Of a stretch of 64,000 nt of DNA, positions 35,539 through 48,442 are shown piece by piece (position 1 is the stretch's first letter; each line of letters starts with the position of its first letter). Source of the DNA: Acidimicrobiales bacterium (GTDB taxonomy: Bacteria; Actinomycetota; Acidimicrobiia; Acidimicrobiales; Aldehydirespiratoraceae); the NCBI GenBank assembly GCA_029263175.1, contig JAJCXZ010000061.1, positions 1-64,000 on the forward strand, written 5' to 3'. The notes under the pieces were generated by a model, which had not been told where the DNA came from, did no database searches, and worked only from the letters and a program-made list of their open reading frames with translations. A program made the translations under genes and the position numbers.

Positions 35539-36171
35539 ATGTCACGAACTGAAGTCGTCACCGACGAGCTGCGCCAGGACATCCTCAAGGGACGTTTTGA
35601 ACCCGGCGATCGCCTACTGGAGATCCAGTTGGCCGAGGACTATTCCTGCGGCCGCGCCGCCATTCGCTCAGCGCTGGTCGAACTGACCGCCGAAGGCTTG
35701 GTCGAGCGAGAAGCCAACCGGGGGGCCACGGTGCGCCGGATCACGATCACCGAAGCGATCCAGATCACCGAAGCCCGCTCCGCCCTCGAGAGCCTGATCG
35801 CCGCGCAGGCCGCCCTCCACGCGACCAGCGATGACCACGCCGAACTCCTTGCCATCATCGCAGACATGCACGATGCCGCCGATGAGTCGCTAGGTCGCGC
35901 CTACTCGGAGCTCAATGCGCTCCTACACCGGCGCCTGCGCGAGATGAGTGGTCACACGATTGCCGCCCAGCTCGTGGCCAACCTGCGCGACCGGGCCGCT
36001 CATCACCAGTACCGACTCGCCCTCATGCCAGGGCGATCGCTTGAGTCACTCGGGCAGCACAAGGCCATCGTGGAGGCCGTCGTGGCCGGCGACGAGGATG
36101 CCGCAGCCCAGGCGATGACCGACCATCTGCACTCGGTGATCGACGTGCTCAATCGCTGGGGCGACGCCTAG
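35539..36171 (+). CDS. GntR-family (FCD) transcriptional regulator, likely of the lig cluster
   Basis: This 210-residue regulator has an N-terminal winged helix (TDELRQDILKGRFEPGDRLLEIQLAEDYSCGRAAIRSALVELTAEGLVEREANRGATVRRI) and a helical FCD effector domain with conserved His residues (LLHRRLREMSGH, LGQHKAIVEAVVAGD). Such proteins repress catabolic operons and are released by pathway acids. It sits third in the ligU-ligI operon, and TTGTCGACA-type palindromes lie in both divergent promoter regions of the cluster. Confidence 0.9.
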   Translation: MSRTEVVTDELRQDILKGRFEPGDRLLEIQLAEDYSCGRAAIRSALVELTAEGLVEREANRGATVRRITITEAIQITEARSALESLIAAQAALHATSDDHAELLAIIADMHDAADESLGRAYSELNALLHRRLREMSGHTIAAQLVANLRDRAAHHQYRLALMPGRSLESLGQHKAIVEAVVAGDEDAAAQAMTDHLHSVIDVLNRWGDA

Positions 36172-37004
36172 ACCAAAGCCTCGGCCAGCGGCGCCAATCG
36201 GGACACCTCGACCGGTCCGCGAAATGACCACACGACGATGTCGACGCCGGCCTCGAAGAACTCCGCGGCCTGATCTGCGCAGGCGGCCGGCGATGAATCG
36301 ACGTCGTAGCCCAGGTGGACCGATCGGGCGATCTCGTTGCTGCTGCGGCCCACCTTCTCGCAGTGGTCCCGCAGGACTTCGTCGAGCTCTGCCCACGCGG
36401 CCGGATTCTCGGGGAACGTCATGTCCCACTGGTCGGCGAAGCGGGCCACGGTGCGCAAGGTGCGGGTGCGCCCCTTGCCCCCGATAACGATCGGAACGTG
36501 GTCCTGTACCGGCTTGGGCTCGCACCAGGCGTCGGTCAGCTCGAAGAACCGACCCTTGTGATTGGTAGTGGTGTTTCTCAGCAACGAAACGATGACCTCC
36601 ATCCCCTCTTCGAGTCGGTCGGAGCGATCCCGGAGTTCGCCGAGCGGGATGCCGTAGGCCTCGGACTCCATGAAGTTCCAGCCTGCGCCCATCCCGAGTT
36701 CGAAGCGACCGTTGGAGATGTGGTCCAGCGTGGCCGCCATGTTGGCGGTGACCGCCGGGTGGCGATGATGCATGCCGTTGACCATCGCGCCGATGCGGAT
36801 TCGGGTGGTTGCCTGGGCCAGCGCGCCGAGCATCGTCCACCCCTCGAGGTTGGGGCCGTCGTAAGGCGGGGCCAGCGGATAGAAGTGGTCCCAGTTCCAA
36901 GCCGACTCGAAGACATCGATCTGGTCGGCCTCGCGCCACACGTCGAGGAACTCACCCCAGGTGGCGTGATGCGGCGGGGTCTTGATGGCGTGGCGGCCGT
37001 TCAT
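36168..37004 (-). CDS. LLM-class flavin/F420-dependent oxidoreductase
   Basis: This 278-residue luciferase-like protein has the LLM pattern ESAWNWDHFYPL, RIGAMVNGMHHRHPAVTANMAATLDHISNGRFELGMGAGW and PIVIGGKGRTRTLRTVARFADQWD. The group usually uses F420 in actinomycetes. It lies 15 bases downstream of ligK in the ligJ-ligK operon, so it may act on an aromatic substrate feeding protocatechuate, but this is inference. Its 3' end overlaps the regulator gene by four bases. Confidence 0.88.
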   Translation of the reverse strand: MNGRHAIKTPPHHATWGEFLDVWREADQIDVFESAWNWDHFYPLAPPYDGPNLEGWTMLGALAQATTRIRIGAMVNGMHHRHPAVTANMAATLDHISNGRFELGMGAGWNFMESEAYGIPLGELRDRSDRLEEGMEVIVSLLRNTTTNHKGRFFELTDAWCEPKPVQDHVPIVIGGKGRTRTLRTVARFADQWDMTFPENPAAWAELDEVLRDHCEKVGRSSNEIARSVHLGYDVDSSPAACADQAAEFFEAGVDIVVWSFRGPVEVSRLAPLAEALV

Positions 37005-37019
37005 GGTCGTACTCCTGGA

Positions 37020-37730
37020 TCAGGGCTGGTCGAGAGATTCGACCCATTCGACACCCATGCCCGCGAGCTTGTCACGGAGACCGTAGAAGTCGAGGCCAAG
37101 CTCCCCGGCTTCGAGTCGCGCCCGAGTAGCAGTCTCCTTGTCGAGTCGGGCATTGGACTGCTGGAGCGCCCAGGCTGCTTCCGAGCGGGCGACGACGACG
37201 ACACCGTCGTCGTCGGCGCAGATCACGTCGCCGGGATTGACGATCTGGCCACCGATGCGGATCATCACGTTCACCGAGCCGGGCGTGTTCTTCACGGTGC
37301 CCTGGCACGACACATGCTGCGCCCAGACCGGGAACCGCATCTCGCGGAGATCGGCGGTGTCGCGCACTGCTGCGTCGATCACGAGGCCCCGCACCCCCCG
37401 TTGCATCAGGGAGGTGGCAAGCAGGTCACCGAACATGCCATGGGTGGACGGCGCGGTGTTGGCCACGACCAGGATGTCACCGGGTCGGCACTGCTCGACG
37501 GCAGCATGGATCATGCCGTTGTCGCCAGGGTGACTGAGCACGGTCACGGCGTTGCCCGCGACCTTCCTGCCCTGCTGGATGGGACGGATCTCGGGGCCGA
37601 CGTAGCCCCTGCGTCCGATCGCCTCATGGACGGTGGCGGTGCCGATCGGTGCCAACTGGTCGACGAGGTCGAGCTCAGTGCGGTCGATCGACGTGACCAC
37701 GACGTGGCGGGGTCCGTGGTTGGTGGTCAT
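37020..37730 (-). CDS. ligK: LigK: 4-carboxy-4-hydroxy-2-oxoadipate aldolase (RraA fold)
   Basis: This 236-residue RraA-like class II aldolase carries TATVHEAIGRRG, VEQCRPGDILVVAN, GMFGDLLATSLMQRGVRGLVIDAAVRD and ADDDGVVVV, typical of LigK/ProA. It splits 4-carboxy-4-hydroxy-2-oxoadipate into pyruvate and oxaloacetate, the last step of protocatechuate 4,5-cleavage. The Arg and Asp of VIDAAVRD match the metal and substrate site. The start overlaps the ligJ stop (ATGA). Confidence 0.93.
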   Translation of the reverse strand: MTTNHGPRHVVVTSIDRTELDLVDQLAPIGTATVHEAIGRRGYVGPEIRPIQQGRKVAGNAVTVLSHPGDNGMIHAAVEQCRPGDILVVANTAPSTHGMFGDLLATSLMQRGVRGLVIDAAVRDTADLREMRFPVWAQHVSCQGTVKNTPGSVNVMIRIGGQIVNPGDVICADDDGVVVVARSEAAWALQQSNARLDKETATRARLEAGELGLDFYGLRDKLAGMGVEWVESLDQP

Positions 37731-38734
37731 ACCGGTGCTCCCAAGCGCGGGAAGACCCGCCTGATGTTGTGCTCGTAGATCTCGGCACGGTCGTCGGCGG
37801 AGATGGATGCCCCGTCGAGATAGATCTTCGTGTCGTCGTAGTAGTTGCCAGTGTCGGGGTCGATACCGCGCACGGCGCCGACCATCTCCGAAGCAAACAG
37901 GACATTGTCGACAGGCACGACGTCGACGAGAAGGTCGATGCCCGGCTGGTGGTACACGCAGGTGTCGAACCAGATGTGGTCGAGCAAACCGTCGAAGTCC
38001 CACCCCTTGTCCTGGGCCATGCCCTTGAACCGCCCCCAGTGATACGGAACCGCTCCCCCGCCGTGCGGAATGATCCAACGCAGACCCGGGAAGTCCTTCA
38101 TGAATCCTGACGTGAGCGCCTGCACGAAGGCGGTCGTGTCGGCGCCGAGGTAGTGCGATCCCGTGGTGAAGAAGTGGTCGTTGCAGGAGGTGGAGACGTG
38201 GATCATCCCTGGCACGTCGAGTTCCTGCATCTTCTCCCAGAGCGGCCACCAGTACTGGTCCCAGAGCGGCGGGCCGGTCCAGAACCCGCCGGACGGATCG
38301 GGGTTGACGTTGCACCCGATGAACCCCATTTCCTCGACACAGCGTTCGAGTTCGCGAACCGATGAGTCGATCGCCACTCCCGGTGACTGGGGAAGCTGGC
38401 AAACCGGGGTGAAATTAGCGGGGTAGAGATCACAGACCCGGCGAACGAGTTCATTCTGATGCTCGGTCCAGAACCGGGAGGTGTGCTCGTTGCCCACGTG
38501 GTGACCCATCCAACTGGCCCGGGGCGAGAAGATCGTGAGATCGGTTCCGCGTTCGCGTTGGAGTCTCAGCTGGGCGCCTTCGAGGCTCTCGCGGATGGCG
38601 TCATCACCGACATCCATGATCCCCTTCTCCCCGACGTGCGAGGGATCGGATTCCACTGCTGCCCGTTGTGCGTCGCGCCACTCGCCGACCGGTGGCGGGG
38701 TTGTGGTGTAGTGGCCATGGCAATCGATGATCAT
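37727..38734 (-). CDS. ligJ: LigJ: 4-oxalomesaconate hydratase
   Basis: This 335-residue amidohydrolase-fold protein begins MIIDCHGHYTT (metal HxH) and has FSPRASWMGHHVG, NPDPSGGFWTGPPL, MIHVSTSCNDHFFTTGSHYL, PHGGGAVPYHWGRF and DTCVYHQPGIDLL, all characteristic of LigJ. It hydrates 4-oxalomesaconate to 4-carboxy-4-hydroxy-2-oxoadipate. The start at 38734 has a GGGAG site; the earlier ATG at 38800 would cross the operator. It heads a three-gene operon with ligK and the LLM gene. Confidence 0.94.
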   Translation of the reverse strand: MIIDCHGHYTTTPPPVGEWRDAQRAAVESDPSHVGEKGIMDVGDDAIRESLEGAQLRLQRERGTDLTIFSPRASWMGHHVGNEHTSRFWTEHQNELVRRVCDLYPANFTPVCQLPQSPGVAIDSSVRELERCVEEMGFIGCNVNPDPSGGFWTGPPLWDQYWWPLWEKMQELDVPGMIHVSTSCNDHFFTTGSHYLGADTTAFVQALTSGFMKDFPGLRWIIPHGGGAVPYHWGRFKGMAQDKGWDFDGLLDHIWFDTCVYHQPGIDLLVDVVPVDNVLFASEMVGAVRGIDPDTGNYYDDTKIYLDGASISADDRAEIYEHNIRRVFPRLGAPV

Positions 38735-38746
38735 CGAGTGCTCCCA

Positions 38747-38780
38747 GATTGTCGACAATCGTGTGGACAGTCTGACATAC
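38747..38780. promoter_or_regulatory. Operator and promoter between ligJ and pobA
   Basis: GATTGTCGACAATC (38747-38760) is a perfect 14-bp palindrome sharing TTGTCGACA with the ligC/ligU site. It overlaps a likely plus-strand promoter: TCGACA (38752-38757), a 17-base spacer and CATACT (38775-38780). A protein bound here would block pobA and also lie close to the ligJ start, explaining joint repression. Confidence 0.62.
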
Positions 38781-38820
38781 TCGGGCGGGACACTGCACAC
38801 AAGAACGTCTCAGGGGAGAG

Positions 38821-40011
38821 ATGCGCACGAAGGTCGTGATCGTAGGAGGCGGCCCGGCAGGAATGTTGCTGTCCCAGATCCTGCACCGCGCCGAGATCGA
38901 CCACGTCGTTCTCGAGCGGCAGACTCGCAATTATGTGCTCGGGCGCATCCGCGCGGGCATTCTGGAGTGGAGCTCGGTCGAGGTCATCCGCGCCGCCGGT
39001 GTCAGCACTCGCATGGATGCCGAAGGCGAAGCCCACGACCTCGTCAACCTGGCCTGGGGCGGTGAGCATGTGCTTCCGATCCGGGTGAAGGAGCTCACCG
39101 GTCGTCAGATGATGGCTTACGGCCAAACAGAGTTGCAGCAGGATCTCTACAACGCGGCCGACGACAATGGCACCTCGCTGCTCTTCTCCGCCGACGATGT
39201 CGCCGTAAACGACGTCACAACCGAGTCGCCCCACGTGACCTTCCGCCACAACGGCGCCGACGAGCGGATCGACTGCGACTACGTCGCCGGCTGCGACGGT
39301 TTCCATGGCGTCAGCCGAGCAGCAATCCCCGAGGCAGAACGCACCGAGTATGAACGCACGTACCCGTTTGGCTGGCTCGGCATTCTCTCGGAGACTCCAC
39401 CACTCCCCCATCTCGTCTACACCAATCATGAGCGGGGCTTCGGTCTGTGCAGCACCCGTAACCCGATGCTCAGCCGGTATTACGTGCAGTGCCCGATCGA
39501 GGACCATGTCGACGACTGGAGCGACGATCGCTTCTGGTCCGAGCTCAGTGCTCGTCTCCCCGGCGAGGTGGCCGACCGGGTCGTCACCGGTCCGAGCATC
39601 GAGAAGTCGATCGCGCCGCTGCGGAGCTTCGTTGCCGAGCCCATGCGCTACGGCAACCTCTTCCTGGCCGGCGATTCCGCCCACATCGTTCCGCCCACGG
39701 GCGCCAAGGGCCTCAACCTCGCGGTCTCCGATGTGCACCTTCTGTCTCGAGCGCTCATCGCCCACTACCGAGACGGCGACACGGCACACCTCGACGGTTA
39801 TTCCGGCGAGGCGCTCGAGCGGGTGTGGGGTTCGGTGCGGTTCAGTTGGTGGATGACCACGCTGTTGCACCGCTTCCCCGACATGACCGACTTCGATCAA
39901 CGTCTGCAGGAACGGGAGCTGAGCTATCTCGCCTCATCCACCGCTGCCCAGGCGTCGATGGCCGAGCAATACGTCGGCATCCCGTTCGCCAACCCACCGG
40001 AAGAGGAGTAG
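38821..40011 (+). CDS. pobA: PobA: 4-hydroxybenzoate 3-monooxygenase
   Basis: This 396-residue FAD monooxygenase has the GGGPAGMLL dinucleotide motif, RIRAGILEW (family RVRAGVLE), YGQTELQQDL, GCDGFHG, YPFGWLGILSETPP and SIAPLRSFVAEPMRYGNLFLAGDSAHIVPPTGAKGLNLA. These match p-hydroxybenzoate hydroxylase over the whole length. It hydroxylates 4-hydroxybenzoate to protocatechuate, the substrate of the LigAB enzyme encoded next, three bases after its stop. Confidence 0.95.
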   Translation: MRTKVVIVGGGPAGMLLSQILHRAEIDHVVLERQTRNYVLGRIRAGILEWSSVEVIRAAGVSTRMDAEGEAHDLVNLAWGGEHVLPIRVKELTGRQMMAYGQTELQQDLYNAADDNGTSLLFSADDVAVNDVTTESPHVTFRHNGADERIDCDYVAGCDGFHGVSRAAIPEAERTEYERTYPFGWLGILSETPPLPHLVYTNHERGFGLCSTRNPMLSRYYVQCPIEDHVDDWSDDRFWSELSARLPGEVADRVVTGPSIEKSIAPLRSFVAEPMRYGNLFLAGDSAHIVPPTGAKGLNLAVSDVHLLSRALIAHYRDGDTAHLDGYSGEALERVWGSVRFSWWMTTLLHRFPDMTDFDQRLQERELSYLASSTAAQASMAEQYVGIPFANPPEEE

Positions 40012-40014
40012 GCC

Positions 40015-41296
<1,282 letters not shown>

Positions 41297-42943: not shown

Positions 42944-42995
42944 CCCTAACGCACACTGGGGTCTGTCCCCAGTGTGCGTTAGGGCTGTGCGTTAG
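42944..42995. repeat. Type B palindromic repeat, copy 2, plus a half-copy
   Basis: CCCTAACGCACACTGGGG and its exact complement flank TCTGT (42944-42984), giving an 18-bp perfect stem. A further partial unit TGTGCGTTAG follows (42986-42995) and supplies the TAA stop of the convergent CMD-like gene (42992-42994 on the other strand). This resembles stepwise gain or decay of repeat units. Confidence 0.88.
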
Positions 42996-43549
42996 AAGGG
43001 CGATGTCTCGCCTTCGGGGACGTCGATCTGGTGGGTGTTGAGGAGCATCGAGATCATCGTGTAGTACCCCGATGTGGCGATGAGTTCGACGACCCCGACC
43101 TCGTCGAAGTGGGCGACCGCCGCTGCATACGTGGCGTCGTCGACCTGATGGTCCACGTGAAGGGCGCGGCAGAGCCGGTAGCAGGCTTCGTCGCGAGCAT
43201 CAGCGAAAACCGGCTCGGAGCCGATCTTGATGGCCGCGATCACATCGTCGGGCACACCAGCTTCTCTCGCCATCGGCTCGTGGGCCCACCACTCGAACGG
43301 AGCCTGCCAGAACTGCCCGGCGACCAGGATGGCGAGTTCGACGAATCGACGGTCCACGACTGTCTTGCTTCGCACCGACATCCCGACCCGGGCGAGGTTT
43401 CGCCCCAGTCCCCCGGCGAGGACCATGGCGTCGAACGGCCCGCCGAGGCGACCGTCATCTCCCAGCCCACGGAGACCGACGACATTGTCGAAATGGCGCC
43501 GCTGGCCCTCATCGAGCGATTCGTGGTCGAGCGGGTTCAGCCGGCTCAC
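42992..43549 (-). CDS. Carboxymuconolactone decarboxylase (AhpD-like) family protein
   Basis: This 185-residue helical protein has the CMD pattern FVELAILVAGQFWQAPFEWWAHEPMAREAGVPDDVIAAIK and a C-terminal VELIATSGYYTMISMLLNTHQIDVP. No CxxC redox pair is present, so it is not an AhpD thiol enzyme; a decarboxylase or isomerase role is possible. GTG 43549 overlaps the MerB-like stop (GTGA), so I prefer it to the GTG at 43627. It is the last gene of the seven-gene operon. Confidence 0.82.
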   Translation of the reverse strand: MSRLNPLDHESLDEGQRRHFDNVVGLRGLGDDGRLGGPFDAMVLAGGLGRNLARVGMSVRSKTVVDRRFVELAILVAGQFWQAPFEWWAHEPMAREAGVPDDVIAAIKIGSEPVFADARDEACYRLCRALHVDHQVDDATYAAAVAHFDEVGVVELIATSGYYTMISMLLNTHQIDVPEGETSPF

Positions 43550-44244
43550 GAATCGGTCTCGACTGGTCGAGGCAAACGGGAACGCAGCTCCTTGAAGGCC
43601 GCGCCACCTTCCTCCGAACGGGTCCACGAGATGTAGTCGGATCGACCCCGTTGACGAAAGAAGGGATTGGAGAAGATGTCAGCCCATTCGGCGACAGGCT
43701 TGAGGGCGGCCGACATGGAGTCGTCGTAGCCAACCCAGTTGCGAGCGTGTTCTTCCGACCGGAAGAGGTTCATGTTCGCTCATCTGAAGGGTCGGCTATC
43801 GGCCGAACCTCCGATTTCGGCACTCGTATAGCCAACCATCGGCTCCGGCTCGACCGTCACGATTTCCTCGTCACACATCTCCAGGACCATGGCTTCGCCG
43901 CAACACAAACACGGCGCCTCGATCGTCACTGTCTTGCCCGGCACGAGCCAGCGAATGGCCGTGGCCTCCAGACCACACTGCGCGTACCAGCCGCCCTGAC
44001 CGTCGATTGTGACCTGGTACTGGGTGGGCTGCATGTTGAGAGGGGGAAACGATGCGAGAAGATCCGTGCCCGGATGCACCCACCCTGGCGTCATGCCCAC
44101 GAGCTCGTGCACGAGCTCTCGTGCCGCTTCGATCTCGATCTCGAGCTCAGCCGCAAGCTCGGTGAAGTGCGGGGCCCGCCCGGAGTCGATCACCGCGGAC
44201 ATGATCGCCGAGTAGCCACGGTCGAGTAGTTCAAGCTCTGCCAT
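43546..44244 (-). CDS. MerB-like alkylmercury-lyase family protein, candidate selenoprotein (UGA = Sec155)
   Basis: Two open segments lie in one frame, split only by a TGA at 43780-43782; read through, they give 232 residues. The first part has an N-terminal helical DNA-binding-like fold and WYAQC90GLE93AT, aligning with WCALD of MerB (catalytic C96, D99). The second part, PFR-U155-ANMNLFRSEEHARNW, aligns with SFCCHVHFF, so the UGA falls on MerB Cys159. A 6-bp stem with a GGUC loop lies 17-32 nt from the UGA. It could be an inactivated gene, but codon use stays typical after the stop and the C-terminal MNLFRSEEH block is conserved in the family. There is no merA, merR or merT. It is coupled to aconitase X and CMD-like genes, so a C-S or C-C lyase role other than mercury detoxification is possible. 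Confidence 0.76.
43751..43766 (-). promoter_or_regulatory. Candidate bacterial SECIS in the MerB-like gene
   Basis: With the U of UGA as 1, TCTTCC (17-22) pairs fully with GGAAGA (27-32) around the loop GGUC (23-26). The E. coli fdhF SECIS has the identical loop at 22-25. This is the same loop sequence and spacing as in the redoxin gene at 9697, in unrelated coding context. Confidence 0.72.
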
Positions 44245-44253
44245 CACACAGTT

Positions 44254-44673
44254 CTAGTCGTCGGCCGTCGGCCCATCATCATGCGCGGCGTCGACCTCAC
44301 AGAGATCAGTGGTGCCGGGCGACGGCATCTCATCGGCACCGACCTGCACGATCGGGCAGGTCACGCCATACAGCGCCTCCGCCACGATGACGCCGGCAAT
44401 GAGGTTGACGTCCGCTTTGGTGACGACGAGCGCGGCGGGTCCGACACCAAGCCGAAGCGCCTCACCCAGGACGCCGGGAGTTCCCGAAGAGCCTCGCGAG
44501 CCGGGCATGGCGACGATCCGGCCGGTCATTGTCTGACCGACCTCGGGGTGGCTTCGATCGATGATCAGACCAGTCTTCGGGTCGAGACCGCCCCAGAAGC
44601 TGAGTGGCTCGCTCAGGACAAGCAACCGGCCGGTCGCCTGACCGGCGTGCAATGTGCGACCATCGATCTTCAC
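44254..44673 (-). CDS. Aconitase X small (swivel) subunit
   Basis: This 139-residue protein matches the aconitase X swivel domain (DUF126): GRLLVLSEPLSFWGGLDPKTGLIIDRSHPEVGQTMTGRIVAMPGSRGSSGTPGVLGEAL. GTG 44673 overlaps the large-subunit stop (GTGA). Two-subunit AcnX enzymes dehydrate small hydroxyacids; characterised members act on cis-3-hydroxy-L-proline or mevalonate 5-phosphate. It is the partner of the preceding gene. Confidence 0.9.
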   Translation of the reverse strand: MKIDGRTLHAGQATGRLLVLSEPLSFWGGLDPKTGLIIDRSHPEVGQTMTGRIVAMPGSRGSSGTPGVLGEALRLGVGPAALVVTKADVNLIAGVIVAEALYGVTCPIVQVGADEMPSPGTTDLCEVDAAHDDGPTADD

Positions 44674-45929
44674 GCGCCCGCTCTTCGGCCCAGCCGGACT
44701 TCGCCGGCGATCGCTGAGGCCACACAGTCGGTAAGACTGGAGAAGACGACGTCGACTTCGAGGATCCCCGGGGCGTAGTACGCCCACTTGGCCGAGTTGG
44801 TCATCACCGTGCCGGTCACACCCGTCGCACGGGGCAGGTAGTAGGTGCAGGTGTCGAGCACCACGGCAAATCCCGCGGCCTCGAGAGTCGAGTCCCATCC
44901 GCGCAACTGAACCTCGGCCCACACCGATCGACTGGTGGTGACAATGGCGGTCACACTCGGATGCACCGTTGCCTCGCCCAGCACCGCGATCACCTCACCG
45001 AACTCGGCAACCGAGAAGTGCGGCGTGCCGAGGCACACGGCATTGACCGGCCCCGTAGTGACAGTCGATAGCCCCCCGAGCGTCGAACGAACCAGCGCCG
45101 CATCGACCACGGTCGTTCGCCGCGGTGCCCGGCCACCGGTTGCGTCCGACAGTGTCGGCGCTTCCGGAGTGACCCCGACGACATGAAACATCTCGACGGC
45201 GCCGGCGGTGGCTGCAGCGGCGGCGATGGCCTTGAGATCGTCCTCGCCGGCCTCCCGAAGTCCGACGATCGCGGGAACGGCAGCACCCGCCTGCCGACCG
45301 AGGATCAGGCCGAGAACGTGCGGCAGCCTCGGATCTTTCAGCTCCTCGTCGGAGAGGCGAAGCTCCAAAAGATGTGTGGCCAATCGGCCCTCGTCAGTGT
45401 GAAGGCCCACCAACGGCACCCGTCCGACGATGGCGGCGCTGATGTCGAGCAGGTCGCCGTACTTGTTGGTACGAGCACCGAGGACCGAGTTGAAGAACCC
45501 GACCGCGTTCGACTCCGATCCGACGATCTGCTGGCCCAGACCGGGACGCCCTTCGGCCTGCTGGTACGGAGCACAGCTCCACATGGGCGTGCATCCGAGC
45601 TGTCGGTAGATCTCCATCAGCCGTTCTGCGCCGGAGACCTCCTCCGGAAAGGACGCCGCCGGGCGCAGTGCCGGCGACGAGCGAGCGATCAGGCTGGCAT
45701 TCGTGTGAGTTGGCACCGACAGCTGCGCCCCCTCGGCCAGCAGGAACTCGGCGAAGTCGAGCGACAACTTCCCCGAGTAGTGGCACGAGTTGATGTGAGC
45801 GAACTCGATCGGAACCAACGCGGTGGCACCGCTCGCCTCGGCCGCGGCGACGATGAGCTGCATGGCGAGCTGCTGTGCCCTGCCATCGTCGCCGGCCAGC
45901 CAGTGCTCCTCGGCGCCGGTGAGCTTCAT
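44670..45929 (-). CDS. Aconitase X large (catalytic) subunit
   Basis: This 419-residue protein matches DUF521: MKLTGAEEHWLAGDDGRAQQLAMQLIVAAAEASGA, then VPIEFAHINSCHYSG, CTPMWSCAPYQQ, GSESNAVGFFNSVLGARTNKYGD and TCTYYLP with TNSAKWAYYAPG. The cysteines match the iron-sulfur ligands of the family. The substrate here is unknown; SDR, sulfotransferase-like and racemase-like neighbours do not match the known proline or mevalonate pathways. The start at 45929 lies 13 bases after the SDR stop. Confidence 0.92.
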   Translation of the reverse strand: MKLTGAEEHWLAGDDGRAQQLAMQLIVAAAEASGATALVPIEFAHINSCHYSGKLSLDFAEFLLAEGAQLSVPTHTNASLIARSSPALRPAASFPEEVSGAERLMEIYRQLGCTPMWSCAPYQQAEGRPGLGQQIVGSESNAVGFFNSVLGARTNKYGDLLDISAAIVGRVPLVGLHTDEGRLATHLLELRLSDEELKDPRLPHVLGLILGRQAGAAVPAIVGLREAGEDDLKAIAAAAATAGAVEMFHVVGVTPEAPTLSDATGGRAPRRTTVVDAALVRSTLGGLSTVTTGPVNAVCLGTPHFSVAEFGEVIAVLGEATVHPSVTAIVTTSRSVWAEVQLRGWDSTLEAAGFAVVLDTCTYYLPRATGVTGTVMTNSAKWAYYAPGILEVDVVFSSLTDCVASAIAGEVRLGRRAGA

Positions 45930-45942
45930 CACGACGAGTGCG

Positions 45943-46713
45943 CTAGGACCGCGGGTAGAGCGTCTCGGTGTTGCCGTCGACACCGATGATCTGCCCGGAG
46001 ATGTGCCGTGCGTAGTCGCTGCACAGGTACACGATCAGATCCGCGATCTCTTCGGGATCGACGTAGCACTGCATCGATGTGCCGATTGCATACATGCGTC
46101 GCACGACATCGGGATCGAGGTCCTCGTTGGCGGCGTGGTCCCTGATTACACCCTCCATGCGGTCGCCGTTGACGTTGCCGGGCACGATTCCGTTGACCCG
46201 GATGTTGTCGGGGCCGAGCTCCATGGCCAGCGACTCGGTGAACCCGCTGACCGCCCACTTCGCCGCGACATACGGCGAGCGGTTCGGGAAGCCGAGGATT
46301 CCGGCGGCCGACACCATGTTGATGATGGTGCCGTGCCGCTGGGCCTTGAATACCGGGGCGACCCGCCGGGCGCAATAGAACTGGGCATCGATACACACGG
46401 CCATCGTGAGCCGCCACTCTTCGTCGGTGACGTCTTCGACCGGCTTTGTCGGGCCACCGATGCCGGCGTTGTTCACCATGATGTCGAGCCCGCCCGGAAG
46501 GATCTCGTCGAAGATCGTGTCGAGCTCCGCTGACTTGGTGACGTCGCACTGCCAAGTCGCGATGGAGTCGGGAAGCGTCGCCAGACCGTTCGGGTCGATA
46601 TCGCAGGTGAAGACTTCCGCGCCGAGCCGGTCCATCGCCAGCGCCGTCGCACGCCCCATGCCGGCACCACCGGCGGTGATGAAGGCTCGCTTGCCTTCGA
46701 GTGAGATCTGCAC
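45943..46713 (-). CDS. Short-chain dehydrogenase/reductase
   Basis: This 256-residue SDR has TAGGAGMG, VNNAG, the Ser of NMVSAAG, YVAAK and the C-terminal QIIGVDGNTE. It probably interconverts a hydroxyl and a keto group in the aconitase X pathway. The gene sits between the sulfotransferase-like gene (3 bases) and aconitase X (13 bases), so they are one transcript. Confidence 0.9.
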   Translation of the reverse strand: MQISLEGKRAFITAGGAGMGRATALAMDRLGAEVFTCDIDPNGLATLPDSIATWQCDVTKSAELDTIFDEILPGGLDIMVNNAGIGGPTKPVEDVTDEEWRLTMAVCIDAQFYCARRVAPVFKAQRHGTIINMVSAAGILGFPNRSPYVAAKWAVSGFTESLAMELGPDNIRVNGIVPGNVNGDRMEGVIRDHAANEDLDPDVVRRMYAIGTSMQCYVDPEEIADLIVYLCSDYARHISGQIIGVDGNTETLYPRS

Positions 46714-46716
46714 TGG

Positions 46717-47478
46717 CTACTCCTGTGGGGTCGGGTTTGGGGTCGGCGTGAACCGGTGGCGATACAGCTCTTCGAAAAGCGGGAGGCTGCGTTCATAGAA
46801 CTCGAACAAGCGCTGGTTGTCCTCGAGCGGCGCGTACTCGGTGGTCGACTTCTGGATCCCGGTGCTCGCCCTGAGATTGTCGTGCCATGGCCCGGTGCCC
46901 TCGCCGTACCAGCTGACTTCGTTGCGGTCGCCCGCCTCCCACTCGAGCGCCTCGGGCTTGTGGACGATTCCGACAGCGTCGCAGTAGGCGCTCGCGGTGC
47001 CCGCGGGATCATCCAGCAGGTCACCGGAGTACATCACCGGGGGTGGCGTGCCATCGCGGTCGGCGAGGCGAACGAACAGCCGGTGCAAAGACTCGAACCC
47101 GACCTCCTCAAATGTGCAATCGGGCCAGTGCTTGGCGAGACCCTGCACGACCCGCTTCGGGTCACGGATGAGGAAGCTGTGGGTCATGTTCGCAAGTCGC
47201 TCCTCGGTGAAGGAGTGCTCGGCCGAATAGGCGAAGTCCTTGACGAAGACGTTCGCGCCGTCGGCACCGTGGGCAGCGTTCAGCGCTGCCCAGGTCGACG
47301 CGAAGTTGTGGCCGGGCTTGGCTTCCACGTCGGCGTCACGATCGCTCTGGCGATCCTCGCCGTAGTAGTAGGTCTCGTTCCACGGCTCGTGGAAGCACGT
47401 GAAATCGCCGCGCTGGCGCATCATCCATTCGAACGCGGTCGATGTCGATCGTGGCGTTGCCCAGAGTGTGAGGAACAT
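46717..47478 (-). CDS. Sulfotransferase-like P-loop protein
   Basis: This 253-residue protein opens with LWATPRSTSTAFEWMM, a 5'-phosphosulfate-binding-like loop, and has LIRDPKRVVQGLAKHW, which resembles the 3'-phosphate-binding RDPR segment. Family members move sulfate from PAPS to hydroxyls, but many bacterial relatives are uncharacterised. It starts exactly after the racemase-like stop. In an otherwise catabolic operon a sulfotransferase is unexpected. Confidence 0.75.
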   Translation of the reverse strand: MFLTLWATPRSTSTAFEWMMRQRGDFTCFHEPWNETYYYGEDRQSDRDADVEAKPGHNFASTWAALNAAHGADGANVFVKDFAYSAEHSFTEERLANMTHSFLIRDPKRVVQGLAKHWPDCTFEEVGFESLHRLFVRLADRDGTPPPVMYSGDLLDDPAGTASAYCDAVGIVHKPEALEWEAGDRNEVSWYGEGTGPWHDNLRASTGIQKSTTEYAPLEDNQRLFEFYERSLPLFEELYRHRFTPTPNPTPQE

Positions 47479-48309
47479 CTACATCGATCCTTGAAGTGAG
47501 GTCAGCAACGAGCCGTGTCGGCCAAGCGGCGCTACGCCGAGCGTGCGGAAGATCTGCCAATAGAGCGTGATGTCGGCAGCCAGCACCGGCTTCTCGATGT
47601 CGGCCTCGATGTCGGCGGCCAGGGAGACGAGACGTTGCGGCAGGCCGACGGCGTCGCGGTAGTTCGACATGCCGTTGACCAGCACCGCATCGACATCCGG
47701 CGCCTGTTCGATTGTGTGGCGCATCGAATCCAGCGCGAGTTCGGCGGGGAAGATCCAGGTGTGGTCGTTCACCTCTTGCTGGGTCTCGTACCAGCCCTGG
47801 TCAACGAAGTTGCCATACCAGACCACATCGATGTCGGCGCTGCGCAGGAACCGTACGACGCCATCTCGCCAGTCCGGCCAGAAGTAGACGGAGTTCAGCG
47901 CCACCCGTTCGTAACCGTGCGCTTCACATGCTTCGACCAGGGTGAGGCCGGCCATGTGGAACGGGGTCTCGTACCGCTCGCTGACCTCTGCCACAAACGC
48001 ACGAATGTCGTGCACGTCGGTGCCGTTGGCGTGAACCCAGTTGGTGCCGACCTGCCCGACCACATCGGCCCCGCTGTTGCTCATCGTGTGGACGACTTCT
48101 TCCAGGAGATGGAAGTTGTCGGCCCGTTGCCCGAGCTCATGGGCGTATCCAGGGACATGAAGGAGGCGCCCGTGCACGCCGACCGTCTCGGGAGCGATCC
48201 GCAGAAAGTCGCTCGGCGCCCCATCGAAATCCATCGGCGGCGCCGTGAACCCAACCTGATGGGGGAAGAGCTTGTGGGCCGGATCCGACCACTTCTCAGG
48301 CTTGGTCAT
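47479..48309 (-). CDS. Asp/Glu racemase / maleate isomerase superfamily protein lacking both Cys
   Basis: This 276-residue protein has the fold pattern of maleate isomerase and arylmalonate decarboxylase: HELGQRADNFHLLEEVVHTMSNSGADVVGQVGTN, AGLTLVEACEAHGYERVALNSVYF and DVDAVLVNGMSNYRD. Where the family has its two catalytic cysteines (first in the ACTSG-like loop, second in SCTNLR) this protein has GTN and MSN. It is therefore either inactive, or uses a different chemistry. ATG 48309 has an AAGGA site; the ATG at 48321 is less well placed. It heads the operon. Confidence 0.72.
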   Translation of the reverse strand: MTKPEKWSDPAHKLFPHQVGFTAPPMDFDGAPSDFLRIAPETVGVHGRLLHVPGYAHELGQRADNFHLLEEVVHTMSNSGADVVGQVGTNWVHANGTDVHDIRAFVAEVSERYETPFHMAGLTLVEACEAHGYERVALNSVYFWPDWRDGVVRFLRSADIDVVWYGNFVDQGWYETQQEVNDHTWIFPAELALDSMRHTIEQAPDVDAVLVNGMSNYRDAVGLPQRLVSLAADIEADIEKPVLAADITLYWQIFRTLGVAPLGRHGSLLTSLQGSM

Positions 48310-48326
48310 CGGGTCCTTCATCGAGA

Positions 48327-48377: not shown

Positions 48378-48442
48378 ACGTTCTTGAACTCGTGTACTCA
48401 CGTATCTCTATGGACAACGTCCGTACACGAGTTCAAGAACGT
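48378..48442 (-). terminator. Long 20-bp inverted repeat after the 48442 gene
   Basis: ACGTTCTTGAACTCGTGTAC (48378-48397) and its exact complement (48423-48442) enclose 25 bases. The right arm begins within the TGA stop of the upstream gene, as in the type A and B repeats, although the sequence is unrelated. It probably ends that transcript before the seven-gene operon promoter. Confidence 0.6.

Follow-up and report, generated by a model that had tools for sequence, protein, structure and literature searches.

An aconitase X and sulfotransferase operon conserved among Acidimicrobiia, with a predicted MerB-like selenoprotein

To our knowledge, only two functions are known for aconitase X (AcnX). 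The type IIa enzyme AtAcnX is a cis-3-hydroxy-L-proline (C3LHyp) dehydratase and the type IIb enzyme (7CNR/7CNS) a mevalonate-5-phosphate dehydratase; the authors of the AcnX structure urge the characterisation of subclasses that lack the landmark residues (PMC8184944). Among MerB-related proteins, which include the organomercurial lyase MerB itself (1S6L, 5C17), only SaoL of the SAO system (NF040728), with its CU motif, is listed as a selenoprotein in a 2026 review (PMC13188914). Here, we compare these systems with an operon on the minus strand of a 64,000-nucleotide stretch from the genome of a marine actinobacterium of the Acidimicrobiales (GCA_029263175.1, contig JAJCXZ010000061.1, positions 1 to 64,000; hereafter the window). 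The operon is likely to encode a module for hydroxy-acid conversion and sulfation that is conserved but uncharacterised, and the best-supported new point of the analysis is the predicted selenocysteine (Sec)-containing MerB-like protein encoded within it.

Seven open reading frames run head to tail from 48321 to 42992. In order, they encode a protein with the arylmalonate decarboxylase (AMDase) / maleate isomerase fold (RAC), a PF19798 sulfotransferase (SULFO), a short-chain dehydrogenase/reductase (SDR), the large and small (swivel) subunits of AcnX, a MerB-like protein and a carboxymuconolactone decarboxylase (CMD)-like protein. A preliminary description of this DNA had reported such a seven-gene operon with tight spacing, and both hold: gaps of 0, 3, 13 and 6 bases follow RAC, SULFO, SDR and AcnX small, respectively, and two 4-base overlaps join the AcnX subunits and the MerB-like and CMD-like genes. 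Its labels for AcnX, SDR, sulfotransferase and MerB (with Sec) agree with Pfam, the CMD label is weak, and the racemase label given to RAC fails for want of both catalytic cysteines.

Relative to characterised AcnX enzymes, the operon pair (large subunit, 44670..45929, Pfam AcnX, PF04412, 375.1 bits vs a cut-off of 31.5; small subunit, 44254..44673, Pfam AcnX_swivel, PF01989, 81.4 bits vs 27) stands apart. In a phylogenetic tree, the operon AcnX proteins form a clade of their own with 100/100 support, and 28 further AcnX sequences from the class Acidimicrobiia fall outside it. When residues are mapped onto AtAcnX numbering (PMC8184944), the operon clade shares with AtAcnX the large and small domains and the Fe-S cysteine, and it retains the equivalents of Cys273, Glu292, Ser293, Asn294, Lys530 and Tyr534 as well as Trp35 and Ser70 of the small subunit; the 508/510 site holds a single cysteine. 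It departs from AtAcnX in that Asp203 is replaced by Asn or Gly, Ile206 by His or Phe, and Thr72 by Gly (SSG replaces Ser70-Cys71-Thr72); the large subunit encoded in the window has the signature Asn203/His206. Asp203 and Thr72 are the residues that hold the nitrogen of cis-3-hydroxyproline in AtAcnX (PMC8184944), and canonical AcnX of the class retain Asp203, with Ser at the Thr72 position. Similarly, the type IIb enzyme shares both subunits and the carboxylate- and hydroxyl-handling residues, whereas the operon AcnX is bacterial, has other neighbours and differs in the residues that set specificity: mapped through AtAcnX, Ala47(L), Ser50(L), Leu27(S) and Val64(S) of TkAcnX correspond to Asn, His, Trp and Gly. 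Because the dehydration residues are kept and the nitrogen-binding residues lost, the operon AcnX would be a hydroxy-acid dehydratase with a substrate other than the known two. The preliminary description had argued that neither known AcnX pathway fits, and the residues, which speak against both substrates, and the differing neighbours bear this out. The pair represents a subclass defined by a sharp residue signature and a conserved gene neighbourhood, which allows a direct search for its substrate.

The core gene order recurs in other genomes and is not unique to this strain. RAC was used as a query against 84,980 species genomes, and the best 80 of 127 confirmed relatives were kept, which share at least about 58% RAC identity; neighbouring genes were predicted with a codon-model caller. 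These 80 loci (L numbers below denote loci and G numbers genomes) come mostly from Acidimicrobiia and from alpha- and gammaproteobacteria, including Candidatus Thioglobus and Pelagibius. In 64 of the 80, RAC has a SULFO relative on the same strand no more than 300 bases away, and RAC-SULFO is a highly conserved, unassigned enzyme pair that spans marine phyla; an SDR is near RAC on the same strand in 14, AcnX large in 13 and MerB in two. RAC-SULFO-SDR, mostly with both AcnX subunits, is found again in about 14 Acidimicrobiia. The full order RAC-SULFO-SDR-AcnXL-AcnXS is present in L077, L078, L079, L081 and L084, and in some other loci AcnX sits upstream of RAC. The operon SDR (45943..46713; Pfam adh_short_C2, 164.5 bits) is 75-86% identical to the SDR of other operons and stays joined to AcnX in L157, where RAC-SULFO is absent. 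The genes are also found on different contigs of one genome: SDR-AcnXL-AcnXS and RAC in G271, and RAC-SULFO-SDR-DddP-like and AcnX in G314. Among 395 genomes of the class, RAC occurs in six and operon-clade AcnX in three, all three within the six (p ~2e-6, assuming independent genomes and ignoring phylogeny). Literature searches on RAC paired with SULFO, on selenoproteins of Acidimicrobiia and on SAO terms returned no description of the system, although an earlier mention may exist.

SULFO (46717..47478; Pfam Sulfotransfer_5, 52.2 bits vs a cut-off of 23.2) had no match in a sequence search of the PDB, and its PRSTST loop, which is the loop for 3'-phosphoadenosine 5'-phosphosulfate (PAPS), and R105 are conserved in 67 relatives. 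PAPS-synthesis genes adjoin RAC-SULFO in five loci: directly beside the pair stand cysD and cysN-cysC in L120 (9623-12420), a cysN-like gene and cysC in L100 (2-2216), and cysC in L126 (10382-11059) and L150 (2446-2985), and a cysD relative adjoins it in L122. The window genome itself has two matches to adenosine 5'-phosphosulfate kinase above the cut-off. The PAPS-gene neighbours in five genomes support true sulfation by SULFO, in line with the sulfotransferase-like gene and the possibly sulfated acid of the preliminary description. In L126, L137, L146 and L147, two or three SULFO paralogues accompany a single RAC, which suggests several sulfation substrates.

RAC (47479..48321, with start codons at 48321 or 48309 both possible; Pfam Amdase, 27.4 bits vs a cut-off of 25.9) was modelled by AlphaFold with a mean confidence (pLDDT) of 91.9. 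Its nearest structure is 4ix1 (Z 29.6), a protein without an assigned function; AMDase and maleate isomerase share the fold (Z ~25) at 17-18% identity. Unlike these enzymes, RAC lacks the catalytic cysteine at both sites: GTN and NGM stand where Cys-bearing relatives carry CTS and SCT, placing Gly92 and Gly217 at the cysteine positions, and no conserved cysteine is present at either site among 78 RAC relatives. RAC is therefore not a two-cysteine Asp/Glu racemase or maleate isomerase, and the possible isomerase proposed earlier cannot be a racemase of that kind. In a separate set of Acidimicrobiia loci (L086-L099 and L148), RAC occurs without SULFO and in fixed order with a gamma-butyrobetaine hydroxylase (GBBH)-like dioxygenase, MR/MLE and SDRs.

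Related operons also hold a HalD-family Fe/2-oxoglutarate (2OG) enzyme, a 3-hydroxyisobutyrate-dehydrogenase (HIBDH)-type reductase, a class II aldolase, MR/MLE dehydratases, a DddP-like M24 enzyme and GBBH-like dioxygenases. The HalD-like neighbour was considered as a halogenase and rejected; it carries HFD (HxD) and is hence taken as a hydroxylase. DddP-like, HIBDH-type reductase, aldolase, MR/MLE and DAO genes stand together on contig C97 of G271. In the window genome, a DddP-like M24 gene (G000:C49:202409-203575) has a TetR-like gene and a DAO-type oxidase gene as neighbours and may mark a second locus of the operon's pathway.

We read the companion genes as pieces of a split pathway that acts on a small, oxygenated acid. 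From sequence and predicted structure, we infer all of the operon's reactions and its substrate, the best candidate for the latter being a small acid of hydroxy or sugar type. The AcnX pair, with its Fe-S cluster as Lewis acid, would eliminate water from a beta-hydroxy acid without a proline nitrogen; the SDR would oxidise or reduce a hydroxyl, either on the substrate or on the product; SULFO would move sulfate from PAPS onto a hydroxyl; and RAC, a cysteine-free AMDase fold, would then perform a lyase or isomerase step on a keto acid or a sulfated acid. The HxD Fe/2OG oxygenase, MR/MLE, class II aldolase, 3-hydroxyisobutyrate/tartronate-semialdehyde-type reductase and DddP-like M24 enzyme that accompany these genes in other species would form an oxygenate-dehydrate-split-reduce set. 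Our best overall explanation, which we hold with about even confidence, is that the operon is part of an uncharacterised pathway, mainly of marine bacteria, for a small hydroxy acid that is probably sugar-acid-like. The preliminary description had proposed an unknown pathway for a small sulfated or sulfur-containing acid; the conserved, unknown module stands, and the named substrate class remains a guess. The operon, its conservation, the AcnX clade and residues, the PAPS-gene link and the Sec decoding signals were all established by computation. Several observations weigh against one shared pathway. RAC lacks SULFO in 16 of the 80 loci; the proteobacterial RAC-SULFO loci examined have no AcnX; a MerB gene comes after AcnX in just three species, that of the window and the two close ones of L077 and L078 (85-87% identity); three of the five genomes with close MerB relatives (G392, G030 and G204) lack RAC; and companion genes vary so strongly by lineage that a single pathway is not proven.

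The MerB-like gene (43546..44247; 233 residues; Pfam MerB, 60.1 bits vs a cut-off of 27) is open through one in-frame TGA (43780..43782), which lies at the MerB Cys159 position and which we read as Sec156; in one comparison, TGA stood there in 16 of 16 relatives. Relatives occur in 15 of the 395 class genomes. Every aligned relative has TGA at the Cys159 site apart from L046, whose two sites are both Cys; in a group that shares about 40% identity with the window protein, the Cys96 site is likewise TGA. A short way downstream of the UGA, a hairpin is predicted (UCUUCC-GGUC-GGAAGA, 43751..43766) with a loop that begins 19 nt after the UGA. Rfam scans of the window and operon were empty, so this selenocysteine insertion sequence (SECIS) was assessed by folding and codon invariance. 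The hairpin codons CTC TTC CGG TCG GAA are invariant in all sequences with those residues, whereas the other conserved columns (Sec codon, Met and Trp excluded) all use at least two codons. The genome also encodes SelA-SelB, SelD and a tRNA-Sec with anticodon UCA; co-occurrence of SelA and Sec-MerB was uninformative because SelA is near universal in the class (34/37). The UGA site, hairpin, codon invariance and Sec machinery strongly support a genuine selenoprotein and agree with the earlier Sec call. Standard gene calling would cut such proteins at the UGA, and surveys of methylmercury-degradation genes may miss or misread Sec-MerB in marine actinobacteria.

Three further observations concern Sec in these genomes. 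The MerB-like proteins of L036-L042 and L171-L173 have Sec at both the Cys96 and Cys159 positions, with a predicted hairpin after most UGAs; such use of Sec, at a single catalytic site or at the two together, offers a natural experiment on MerB catalysis. MerB-like proteins of other actinobacterial families (L174-L182 and L185) have Cys-x-x-Asp, Sec at Cys159 and the same hairpin, a few with a G-U pair. The window genome's SelD gene (G000:C3:15979-16917) is itself a selenoprotein gene, with a UGCK motif and its own UGA.

The MerB-like model (pLDDT 90.3) matches MerB2 (5c17) at Z 17.7 and 3f2f at 16.5, with the next unrelated match at 4.6. The fold is that of MerB, and Cys91, Glu94 and Sec156 align with MerB Cys96, Asp99 and Cys159, whose catalytic roles they may hold. 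The protein is set apart by Sec at 159 (relatives have it at 96 as well), by Glu in place of Asp99 and by its low identity of about 20%. No NCBIfam model claims the family: it scores 35.4 against the MerB cut-off of 193, and 31.2 bits against the cut-off of 140 for SaoL, from which it further differs in having Arg before Sec rather than the CU motif and no SAO genes seen alongside. Among its close relatives (68-71%), those in L034 and L035 neighbour a luciferase-like monooxygenase, FAA hydrolase and NMT1-type transporter, that in L035 also a TRAP transporter and that in L033 an M24 peptidase, and the family as a whole has no conserved neighbour. Such unrelated neighbours, together with close-group genomes without RAC, point to late recruitment; the gene probably joined the operon transcript only recently and has a separate function, and the earlier idea of MerB as a step in one conserved pathway is correspondingly weak. 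The protein probably protonolyses a carbon-metal (or carbon-heteroatom) bond. It may be an ordinary methylmercury organomercurial lyase that landed downstream of the AcnX operon, to which we give slightly less than an even chance and which is compatible with the hydroxy-acid reading of the other genes. The fold, the catalytic positions kept as Cys/Glu/Sec, the Cys-x-x-Asp and Sec relatives in other actinobacterial families and the lack of conserved neighbours favour it, whereas the Glu at Asp99 throughout the group, the absence of merA, merT and merR next to the gene and the AcnX transcript shared in three species do not.

A second alternative concerns the substrate of the operon, which could be an onium osmolyte resembling dimethylsulfoniopropionate (DMSP), carnitine or betaine rather than a plain hydroxy acid. 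RAC clusters contain DddP-like M24 enzymes that keep the metal ligands and HGVG-x-DE region, as in the DMSP lyase DddP (4RZY, 4B28), along with GBBH/TmpA-like dioxygenases, DAO-type amine oxidases and, near gammaproteobacterial RAC, a cupin of the DMSP_lyase family. Unlike DddP, however, the relative in related operons falls below the equivalog cut-off, as do the other companions scored with NCBIfam, and the window operon has no DddP-like gene; the M24, cupin and DAO families are broad and each occurs in only a subset of loci. We consider an onium substrate unlikely.

Less probable again is a sulfation-activated elimination, in which SULFO would sulfate a beta-hydroxy acid and RAC would expel the sulfate with loss of CO2 to give an alkene. 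Curacin and olefin synthases use a comparable sulfotransferase-thioesterase step, and the decarboxylase fold of RAC, its coupling to SULFO and the PAPS genes alongside would suit it. RAC nevertheless lacks the AMDase catalytic cysteine and also occurs without SULFO, and its residues give no support for sulfate elimination, which makes the scheme decidedly improbable.

We assign still lower probability to Sec-MerB as the pathway's own carbon-heteroatom lyase, in the slot after AcnX that a relative of a C-S lyase, the DddP-like protein, fills in sister species (L079 and L081). If this very doubtful proposal were true, a new AcnX dehydratase and PAPS sulfation would feed a final, Sec-driven step that breaks an organo-sulfur, -arsenic or -metal bond; we know of no counterpart for such a reaction.

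Finally, it is barely credible that the operon degrades C3LHyp with an AcnX pair of the usual type IIa: AtAcnX is the closest characterised enzyme by sequence (E 1.5e-58) and the NCBIfam C3LHyp model is the sole NCBIfam match of the large subunit, but at 327 against a cut-off of 700, with both nitrogen-binding residues lost clade-wide, no proline genes in the operon and a second AcnX, 47% identical, in the same genome (G000:C1:11378-12607).

The last gene of the operon encodes the CMD-like protein (42992..43549), which scores 20.4 bits against the Pfam CMD cut-off of 23 and has many relatives in the order, the best at 52-53%. No CMD gene occupies this place in the other operons, and it is apparently a local addition rather than the conserved pathway step once supposed. 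Immediately upstream of the operon, two perfectly matched inverted 20-bp arms flank a 25-nt loop (48378-48442). This repeat was considered as an operator and rejected, as the genome holds further copies at other places, their arms separated by 40 bp; it is a dispersed palindrome similar to repetitive extragenic palindromic (REP) elements. On the other side, an adjacent aromatic cluster (35539-41267) encodes a PobA-like FAD hydroxylase, LigA, LigB, an amidohydrolase, an RraA/aldolase, a luciferase-like monooxygenase and a GntR regulator, and looks like protocatechuate 4,5-cleavage.

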